From NCBI GenBank assembly GCA_947624975.1, contig CANQMP010000014.1, positions 1 to 46,539 on the forward strand: a stretch of DNA of 46,539 bases. The letters are read 5' to 3'. Shown piece after piece: positions 377 through 31,375 of this stretch. A program made the position numbers and the translations under genes. Every line of letters begins with the position of its first letter. Within the stretch, counting starts at the first letter, position 1. Source of the DNA: Candidatus Gastranaerophilales bacterium (GTDB taxonomy: Bacteria; Cyanobacteriota; Vampirovibrionia; Gastranaerophilales; Gastranaerophilaceae). Under the pieces are notes generated by a model. The model did no database searches. It worked only from the letters and a program-made list of their open reading frames with translations, and had not been told where the DNA came from.

Positions 377-515
377 AGTCTTACTCCCTCCCCTAATGGG
401 GAGGGCAGGGGTGCAATTATTTCGGTGCTTTAGCACCTGTAACGAACCTTTCACTTTTCACCTTTCACTTTTTAAATTTTTGTTAAAATTTTATAAAAAT
501 TTTCCATTTTCCCCC
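377..515. other. Gene-free stretch with simple repeats
   Basis: Together with the repeats to its left this makes a gene-free run of over 500 bases before the prepilin promoter. It carries short words (GGTGCTTTAG, repeated CCTTTCACTTTTCAC) that recur near 4722-4785, so the whole stretch belongs to the same repeat family as 4608-4785. I see no RNA gene in it. Confidence 0.6.
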
Positions 516-543
516 TTGCATTTTTTGAAAAATCGTTTATAAT
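516..543 (+). promoter_or_regulatory. Sigma70-type promoter of the first prepilin gene
   Basis: TTGCAT (516-521), 16-base spacer, TATAAT (538-543), with CCCC immediately before the -35 box. The second prepilin gene has almost the same promoter (CCCTTGCAT, 17-base spacer, TATAAT at 31401-31429 on the minus strand), suggesting shared control. Confidence 0.65.
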
Positions 544-576
544 GAGAATGTATAGAAAAAACGAAAGGAAAAAACT

Positions 577-1396
577 ATGAAGAAGATTACTACAACAGTG
601 TTAAACCCATCGGGGGGGGGGGGGATTTTCTCCTAGCAAGCGTTTCGGCGGTAGCCTAACCTTAAAAAACAAAAATTTCGGGTTTACCCTTGCGGAAGTT
701 TTAATCACCCTTGGAATTATCGGTGTCATCGCGGCAATAACTTTGCCGTCACTAATAAATGATACTAAAAACAAAGAATTGGAATCTGCTTTTAAAAAAT
801 CGTATTCTGCTTTATCACAAGCCATGCAATTAATGGTTATGGAAGATTACTTCGGTTCATTAAACATTTCTTCATTTGCCGAGTTTTTTAATATTATAAA
901 AAATCTTTCAAAATATATGAGAAATACCGGATATTGTTCTTTAGAGACTAAATATACTAAATGTCCGGCAGGATTTGTTTATGAAACAGCTGGTAGTACT
1001 GTTTCATGTCCAATAATGAAGAAAAAATATAAAAATTATACAGGCGGGACAGGTAGCGTTTTTTTCAATGATGGCGGAATGCTGCTTTCTGACGGAAGTT
1101 ATATTTTATTTGATATAGATTCTGGGCATGACGTAAAAAAAGATGAAAATGATGAAGAAACACATATTTACGTTGCAGTTGATGTGAATGGTGCTAAAAA
1201 ACCGAACAGATACGGATATGATTTTTTCGTGTTTGAATTTGGTCGTGACGGCAGATTGATACCTTCGGGTTCTGAAGATACCGTATTTACATCAGAAAAA
1301 TATTGTGTTGATTCAAATACATCCGAACCTCACAATGGGTTTGGTTGTACAGAAAGAGCATTTATTGACCACGATTATTTTAAAAATCTTAAATAA
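577..1396 (+). CDS. Type IV pilin-like / pseudopilin protein, out of frame at a 13-G tract (probable phase-variable gene)
   Basis: The ATG at 577 has a good Shine-Dalgarno (GAAAGGA, 562-568) and reads MKKITTTVLNPSGGGG before hitting TAG at 634. The downstream frame, free of stops from 605 to 1396, has no start of its own before the prepilin leader GFTLAEVLITLGIIGVIAAI, which carries the processing Gly, the +1 Phe and the +5 Glu followed by a hydrophobic helix. Removing one G (12 instead of 13; 9 or 15 would also work) joins the two frames into one protein of about 270 residues. After the helix comes a variable extracellular domain with several Cys residues, as in secreted minor pilins or pseudopilins. 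Such proteins are cleaved and methylated by prepilin peptidase and assembled in the inner membrane. The current state would be OFF. A sequencing or assembly error in the homopolymer, or simple decay, are the alternatives. Confidence 0.75.
612..624 (+). repeat. Homopolymeric tract of 13 G inside a coding region
   Basis: Thirteen consecutive G residues lie 12 codons into the prepilin gene in an otherwise AT-rich genome. Long G tracts near a 5' coding end are classic slipped-strand contingency loci. The in-frame lengths are 9, 12 or 15; 13 gives a stop 10 bases after the tract. Confidence 0.85.
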
Positions 1397-30053: not shown

Positions 30054-30668
30054 ATGGATATAAAAAACAATACGGCAAATATAGTATCGGTTTCGAGGAT
30101 TTTTGTTGCGTTTGGTGCGATTGCACTGTTGTATGTACAGACGACTTGGGCATATCTGCTTGCATTTATTCTTACGGCAATAGCGTTTTCTATGGACGGT
30201 GTTGACGGATATATTGCCAGAAAGTATAATCAGTCTTCCGAATGGGGTTCGGTGCTTGATATTTTGGGCGACAGAATTGTAGAGGCTTCTTATTGGATTG
30301 TTTTTGCCGTTCTCGGTTGGATTAGTATCTGGTTCCCGTTGATTTGTGTCACAAGGGCGTTTACAACGGACGGGATAAGGAGTGTTGCTCTGTCAAAAGG
30401 TTATACCGCATTCGGAGAAAAAACCATGCAGTCAAGCAAAATCGGTAAATTTATTTGTGCGTCAAAGTTCATGCGAATAAGTTATGCGGTAGCAAAAGTT
30501 GCTGCGTTTATGCTTTTGATAATTGTAAACACTCCCGGCATGGAGCTTTGGGAAGGCACATTGGCTTTGCGTACGGTGACTATGGTTATTGCATGGCTTG
30601 CGATTATATTTTGTGTTGTAAGAGCTATTCCTGTTGTCGCAGAAAGCGGAAAGTTTTTTAAATCTTAG
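30054..30668 (+). CDS. CDP-alcohol phosphatidyltransferase family protein
   Basis: 204 residues with about five membrane helices. The family signature D-G-x2-A-R-x8-G-x3-D-x3-D is complete (DGVDGYIARKYNQ, then GSVLDILGDR). Such enzymes move a phospho-alcohol group between CDP-diacylglycerol (or CDP-alcohol) and an acceptor in the inner membrane, making phosphatidylglycerol, phosphatidylinositol or similar lipids. The acceptor is not predictable. Last gene of the GT2-oxidoreductase run; it overlaps the converging prepilin gene by 4 bases. Confidence 0.9.
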   Translation: MDIKNNTANIVSVSRIFVAFGAIALLYVQTTWAYLLAFILTAIAFSMDGVDGYIARKYNQSSEWGSVLDILGDRIVEASYWIVFAVLGWISIWFPLICVTRAFTTDGIRSVALSKGYTAFGEKTMQSSKIGKFICASKFMRISYAVAKVAAFMLLIIVNTPGMELWEGTLALRTVTMVIAWLAIIFCVVRAIPVVAESGKFFKS

Positions 30669-31375
30669 TCACATTTATGTTTGCCGTTGAAGCTTAATCC
30701 TTTACAGTGCAAATAATCCATATTTTCAAATTGGATTATCCATGCAGTTGCTGACTCTCCGGTCGACAAACCACTATCTCCAATCCACTTAGATACATCT
30801 TCAGAACCTACCGTGCCATCGAGTCTCTCATCATTCTCCGGATTACCACCCGGTATAACTCGTCTTGGAAGTACATAAAATGTAAACAAATCTTTCCCTA
30901 AAATATTAGGCCCTTTAAATCCATTTACATCCACAAATACTTTTCCAAATTCCGAACGTTCTTCCAATGCTATTAATGTACCATCTGTCATTATAAATTT
31001 ATAAGTTCTTTTAGCTGTTTCAATGTTAAACCAGCCTTTGTTAGACACATAGTTGTATAATATTTTAGGAAAACATCCTTTACTTTCATGTCCGCAAATT
31101 TTATTTGTTTTCAGGTATGGTACGATTTTATCCGCAAATACAGTGGAGGTAGTATCTGCGGTCAGTGTTCCCCATTCACTGTAATCACCATTTTCTATTT
31201 TTGACATTTCATACGCATTAGAAATAACGGAATATATTTTTTTAACCTTTGCAATCGTAACTTTTTCCTGATGTTTTTGTATTAAAACGGGCAAAGTCAA
31301 AGCCGCCACAACACCGATAACACCTAAAGTAATCAAAACTTCTGCCAATGTAAAACCTGATTTTTTATTGTTCAT
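30665..31375 (-). CDS. Type IV pilin-like / pseudopilin protein
   Basis: 236 residues. After seven residues comes the prepilin leader GFTLAEVLITLGVIGVVAAL with Gly(-1), Phe(+1) and Glu(+5). The extracellular part has paired Cys residues (KICGHESKGCF; LHCKGLSFNGKHKCD at the end). It shares leader, early residues and promoter type with the gene at 577, which suggests a family of secreted pseudopilins with different heads. No assembly genes lie beside it, so it is an orphan minor pilin. Confidence 0.9.
   Translation of the reverse strand: MNNKKSGFTLAEVLITLGVIGVVAALTLPVLIQKHQEKVTIAKVKKIYSVISNAYEMSKIENGDYSEWGTLTADTTSTVFADKIVPYLKTNKICGHESKGCFPKILYNYVSNKGWFNIETAKRTYKFIMTDGTLIALEERSEFGKVFVDVNGFKGPNILGKDLFTFYVLPRRVIPGGNPENDERLDGTVGSEDVSKWIGDSGLSTGESATAWIIQFENMDYLHCKGLSFNGKHKCD

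Follow-up and report, generated by a model that had tools for sequence, protein, structure and literature searches.

The prepilin gene that ends at position 1396 of the window (the whole stretch of 46,539 bases that we analyzed) probably belongs to a set of some forty type IV prepilin genes that have in common a cassette of promoter, leader, and poly-G tract, are mostly OFF, and are switched by slips of the tract. The evidence comprises the anatomy of the locus, its repetition in the same genome, tract-length differences among the paralogues, a bias in their reading frames, intact bodies under selection, and like tracts in surface-glycan genes, all of which are directly observed. In the proposed mechanism, the start site would drive a short leader ORF, with the G run placing the prepilin body out of frame; the replicating DNA polymerase would slip within the run, shifting the frame and turning single copies ON, and different cells of a population would carry, and presumably display at their surface, different pilins.

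Anatomy of the prepilin locus and its product

Thirteen G at 612–624 lie between an ATG at 577 and a prepilin body that occupies a different frame and ends at 1396, which confirms the earlier note, where the tract had been described as the joint between a start and a body in separate frames. The leader between the ATG and the run measures 35 nt, that is, eleven codons plus two bases, and the frame set by the ATG extends for 19 codons across the tract before the stop codon TAG at 634–636. The prepilin frame is open from past TAA at 602–604 as far as the stop at 1394–1396, and it contains no ATG, GTG, or TTG between the G tract and the prepilin motif. The features of the locus are as follows.

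Positions 470 to 611, forward strand: shared cassette, made up of the 35-nt leader and about 100 bp ahead of the ATG, present about 40 times in the genome (DNA matches; conservation fades beyond about −110)
Positions 516 to 543, forward strand: promoter-like pair, TTGCAT (516–521) and TATAAT (538–543) separated by 16 nt (read from the sequence; conserved when the upstream regions of 27 leader copies are aligned)
Positions 564 to 569, forward strand: Shine-Dalgarno sequence AAAGGA, 7 nt before ATG 577 (read from the sequence; conserved among copies)
Positions 577 to 636, forward strand: short leader ORF of 19 codons in the assembled sequence, ATG to TAG 634–636 (ORF reading)
Positions 612 to 624, forward strand: poly-G tract of 13 G, the proposed switch (sequence)
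Positions 626 to 1396, forward strand: prepilin body frame, open, in which no usual start precedes the prepilin motif; stop at 1394–1396 (ORF reading; Pfam N_methyl)
Positions 683 to 1393, forward strand: predicted mature pilin of 237 aa, beginning with FTLAEV after Gly −1 (alignment, profiles, structure model)

The promoter-like pair and Shine-Dalgarno sequence that had been proposed for this start are conserved among the copies, although a consensus promoter scanner did not call the promoter-like pair at 516–543. Within the window, 612–624 is the sole run of at least 8 G or C, with 6 overlapping matches to G8 observed against 0.16 expected by chance, and the 13 G constitute a homopolymer of at least eight bases that decides the frame, as is characteristic of phase-variable genes.

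The surroundings of the locus show several further features. Directly before the first promoter hexamer stands a run of C, which counts 5 in the window (511–515), 9 in the copy L104 (minus strand, 2553), and 8 in L158 (minus strand, 1611), and it is possible that this run is a second, transcriptional, variable site. An inverted repeat of 37 nt (97%) pairs 215–251 with 340–376 in a region, 190–410, that is rich in repeat-like intergenic sequence; in some congener prepilins (L068 and L069), stretches resembling this region are seemingly read as part of the long N-terminal leader. Between the prepilin and a tRNA-Tyr gene, a perfect 15-bp stem with A and T tails (1505–1536) is possibly a terminator for both strands.

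The encoded body matches Pfam N_methyl (26.6 bits; cut-off, 21.2) and TIGR02532 (16.5; cut-off, 16.3), and the type IV prepilin pattern of Gly or Ala at −1, Phe at +1, and Glu at +5 is present, with Gly at −1 in the window protein and F1 and E5 invariant across the 26 sequences aligned. An AlphaFold model (mean pLDDT 76.8) predicts a helix at 3–55, strands, and an alpha-beta head. Sequence profiles matched the solved pilins geopilin, PilA, and GspG, with coverage of the N-terminal region only, and a Foldseek search with the pilin model returned zero matches at E 0.001, the best match being Dichelobacter FimA (weak; E 0.18). The window contains a second prepilin gene (30665–31375, minus strand; TIGR02532, 23.8 bits), which is free of G runs of at least 8.

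A family of copies with a common leader and G tract

The earlier note had considered a single gene; this view gave way to that of a system found throughout the genome, which comprises 1,909,137 bases in 59 contigs, and throughout the genus. Searches of the genome yielded 130 matches to the window body, 104 matches to Pfam N_methyl, and 47 matches to the DNA of window positions 540–720. The genome contains 87 tracts of at least 8 G, and the surroundings of all 87 were read: the leader precedes 42 of them, including 37 with a readable prepilin body (36 recognized by a motif pattern and L105, which the pattern missed and which was added by hand), 4 cut by contig ends (L103, L118, L131, and L156), and 1 without a prepilin ORF (L093:2862). 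The last five, along with the non-leader rows L094:1467 and L121, were excluded from the frame counts. An alignment of 27 upstream regions showed conservation of about 100 bp before the ATG and of the 35-nt leader, with no conservation farther upstream. The distance from ATG to tract is 35 nt in all 31 copies in which the ATG is visible, and tract lengths away from contig ends range from 8 to 16; length variation with constant flanks, another characteristic of phase-variable genes, is found among paralogues only. One pair of copies, L091 (G13) and L114 (G14), which share 93.6% over 811 bp, was considered as a length variant and given no weight, the L114 tract being located at a contig end.

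The bodies behind the tracts are largely intact. The body of the window gene is open for 256 codons, and an open stretch of at least 224 codons is present in 35 of 36 bodies, all but L094 (93 codons). In 15 pairs of paralogues, dN/dS is 0.12–0.40, and in the 11 pairs that join two OFF copies, it is 0.12–0.35. OFF bodies that are open and under purifying selection are not decayed genes, and the purifying selection on the family indicates that expression is needed at some time. The frame, broken as assembled, would fit a decaying pseudogene, and the earlier note had named a single fixed 13-G length with further decay of the gene among the observations that would speak against a switch; however, given the open body, the selection on the family, and the fact that most siblings share the break, such decay is hardly credible.

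The alignment of the family copies shows a near-invariant first helix and divergent heads. Combined with the common leader, this pattern is compatible with a silent repertoire in which the OFF copies would supply sequence by recombination to an expressed pilin, in the way that pilS supplies pilE in Neisseria. However, wherever upstream DNA is visible, the copy is equipped with a promoter region, a start, and a leader of its own, and no single expression locus was seen, making a donor role very improbable.

When the frame is called from the leader ATG as the start, 6 of the 37 copies are ON, 24 have one base too many (+1), and 7 have one too few (−1; chi-square p 0.0002); the corresponding counts are 6, 21, and 6 (p 0.001) without the four tracts touching contig ends and 6, 19, and 6 (p 0.004) for the ATG-visible copies alone, all p values being guides only because the copies are paralogues and not independent. 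The +1 frame occurs at tract lengths 10, 13, 16, and 19, the last at a contig end, and with varied downstream spacings. The window copy is OFF as assembled, in the same +1 frame as most of its siblings; because its run extends one base beyond frame, slips of −1+3k would be productive, in agreement with the earlier claim that twelve G would restore the frame.

The even spread of frames expected of free switching is not what the prepilin copies show, and the concentration of 24 of 37 in one OFF frame counts against it. This dominance points to either a default-OFF switch or recoding. According to the latter explanation, which is the main rival, the copies are normally fixed out of frame, and RNA polymerase slippage on the homopolymer or ribosomal frameshifting yields a fraction of the product, such that the run sets a low level of expression and no genetic switch is involved. 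Programmed recoding accords with the dominance of one OFF frame across four tract lengths, from 10 to the 19 at a contig end, but 6 copies in this genome are in frame at the DNA level. Furthermore, the leader RNA is less structured than shuffled sequences (z +1.9), and no stimulating structure was seen after the tract.

The G tracts outside the family provide a reference for these counts. There are 44 such tracts, 28 of which have ORFs on both sides; 9 of these are ON, 6 are +1, and 13 are −1, with no significant frame bias (p 0.27). The prepilin and non-family distributions differ (p 0.004, a guide only, given the kinship among copies). The comparison bears on the explanation by assembly error, under which the consensus would miscount by one base a tract that is really in frame. 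Homopolymers are indeed error-prone, and several contigs start or finish in the leader and tract; nevertheless, with no +1 excess in the non-prepilin tracts (6 of 28), such an error would need to hit prepilins alone. Moreover, the usual stutter makes runs shorter, whereas the bias here is toward one base too many. We consider an assembly error quite improbable.

Pfam matches were obtained for 18 of the 20 scanned ORF pieces that adjoin non-family tracts, mostly to glycosyltransferases and sugar enzymes. They include glycosyltransferase families 2, 8, 10, 61, and GT-D, a polysialyltransferase-like protein, epimerases, and polysaccharide deacetylase, as well as GDSL lipase, FkbM methyltransferase, DUF4422, ACP synthase III, and one prepilin. 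These gene classes vary through G runs in Campylobacter and Helicobacter, and in the company of such classic phase-variable genes, a switch, rather than an accident, is the natural reading. A run of 26 G at L124:1204 precedes a glycosyltransferase of the GT-D fold and is in frame as assembled. General loss of mismatch repair does not appear to explain tract instability, given the presence of MutS1, which scored above the cut-off in the window's genome and in 32 of the 33 genomes of the genus.

The phase variation of the prepilin envisaged in the earlier note thus gains from the anatomy, the forty or so parallel copies with differing lengths and frames, the selection on OFF copies, and the company of phase-variable gene classes, whereas unbiased switching finds no counterpart in the uneven frames, among which one OFF state dominates.

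G tracts across the genus and the ten-base site of congeners

Tracts of at least 10 G are present in 31 of the 33 genomes of the genus, with a maximum of 176, and their counts track the prepilin counts over the 33 genomes (rho 0.77). Two genomes are exceptions, G029 and G021, with 98 and 134 prepilin matches, respectively, yet only 2 and 4 tracts of at least 10 G; these congeners have a prepilin repertoire without the switch. The leader pattern of the window has 35 matches in its own genome and one in each of two congeners, and the window-type leader accordingly appears, by its sequence pattern, to be confined to its own species. The same pattern matched 8 loci of unrelated organisms in a named collection of genome contigs, which we took as chance, and none in viral contigs or phage records.

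In most congeners, the tract has a fixed form. In G026, 79 of the 80 tracts examined measure exactly 10 bases, and C is found on both flanks in all 80; of its 49 prepilin genes with a nearby ATG, 48 are one base short, with G on the coding strand in 35 and C in 13, a count that omits the 13 of 62 prepilin tracts classed as unclear (without a near ATG). The prepilin is likewise one base short in G006 (8/8) and G025 (6/7); in the three genomes, nearly all of these genes carry ten G or C exactly. The same offset was found in 11 of 12 loci with an ATG in other congeners. G005 deviates, with mixed tract lengths of 9–15, and was left out of the motif statistics for this reason. The offset is thus +1 in the window's species versus −1 in the congeners. 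All 10 tracts classed as lying inside other genes are in frame, but the definition of this class itself partly selects for in-frame tracts. The flanks of the congener site are conserved at non-prepilin sites, too (z 7.8 and 6.6 versus a composition control), and a search for TCG10CA across 192 genomes of the order found it in 33, comprising 21 of the 22 from the genus and 12 of the 170 others; a reversed control was near zero.

These regularities weigh on both principal readings. The almost invariable length of ten is odd for a hypermutable run and counts against slippage, and it favors recoding, as does the nearly constant frame of the congener prepilins in G026, G006, and G025, ten bases being approximately the length of the RNA-DNA hybrid. 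Recoding is, however, at odds with the opposite offsets in the window's species and the congeners, with the occurrence of either G or C on the coding strand of the congener site, and with the conservation of the flanks as DNA, non-prepilin sites included. Taken together, these observations make programmed recoding unlikely, and we favor poly-G switching of a prepilin repertoire that is OFF by default.

The strand of the congener tracts seldom changes between neighbors: 1 of 95 times in G026 (among the 100 tracts listed), 2 of 71 in G006, and 4 of 47 in G025 (hand count). In these three genomes, the orientation of C-G10-C tracts stays the same for hundreds of kilobases, even against gene direction. 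In G026, the G strand follows the sign of the GC skew on contigs C1 and C2 and the first part of C3, and the match fails on the later part of C3 and on the single C4 stretch. The orientation of the congener tracts may be linked to the direction of replication.

A broader reading, which we offer tentatively and regard as possible but doubtful, is that most of the hundred or so prepilins per genome are silenced genus-wide by a DNA site that is dedicated to slipping and lies close to the start codon. For the majority of species, the site would have the fixed form of approximately TC-G10-CAAYTYT-AAGCTYY, nearly always one base short, and its G strand would follow long chromosome stretches whatever the gene direction, so that a gene would carry G10 or C10 according to its stretch. 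The site would act as a replication-coupled, default-OFF stochastic chooser of surface fibers, and the window's species would have lost the fixed form and would rely on a longer G tract that runs free within a copied cassette. The question raised is why a slippage tract should be exactly ten bases long, lie on a single strand over long stretches, and be nearly always one base off.

Relation to known poly-G switches

Poly-G phase variation and the switching of pili through G runs are already known kinds of variation; in Helicobacter, for instance, poly-G contingency loci consist of G runs within surface-glycan ORFs. If our reading is right, the genus, which is presumed to be gut-associated, keeps an unusually large poly-G contingency repertoire around type IV prepilins, OFF by default, and the surface diversification of such cells would be open to an amplicon-level test. 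Our literature search, thin on subscription journals, found no report of a prepilin repertoire this large under poly-G control or of poly-G tracts in this lineage; a paper on termite-gut Melainabacteria mentions pil genes, and tracts are not among the points given from it (PMC5877343).

Like the other tracts in the window's genome, the poly-G loci of Campylobacter are G runs within surface-glycan ORFs, and the portion of the source consulted gives 18–39 putative phase-variable genes for Campylobacter jejuni, with tracts mostly of 9 or 10 G (PMC6321876). By comparison, the window's genome alone has 87 tracts of at least 8 G and a congener has 176 of at least 10, with prepilins leading. In Neisseria, pilC and pilE/pilS are similar in that pilus production is switched via G/C runs in reading frames, but pilC exists in one or two copies and encodes a pilus-associated protein, and the account drawn on describes no large family of separately switched prepilins (PMC5953494).

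Bifidobacterium breve has pili encoded at two loci that are OFF by default and in which −1+3n slips are productive, as was reported on the basis of deep sequencing and electron microscopy (PMC9187656). In this gut commensal, bbr_0113 and bbr_1889 of strain UCC2003 resemble the window gene in combining an upstream ORF that has the start signals, a pilin body in another frame, a G tract as the joint, and a default-OFF state (PMC9187656). The window gene shows the same arrangement of an upstream ORF with start signals and a startless pilin body, in which a −1+3n slip would be productive, the likeness being one of anatomy only. The B. breve loci differ in number and in product: they are two and encode sortase-dependent LPXTG pilins (PMC9187656), whereas the translated window prepilin contains no LPXTG and is a type IV prepilin, one of a repertoire with a shared cassette.
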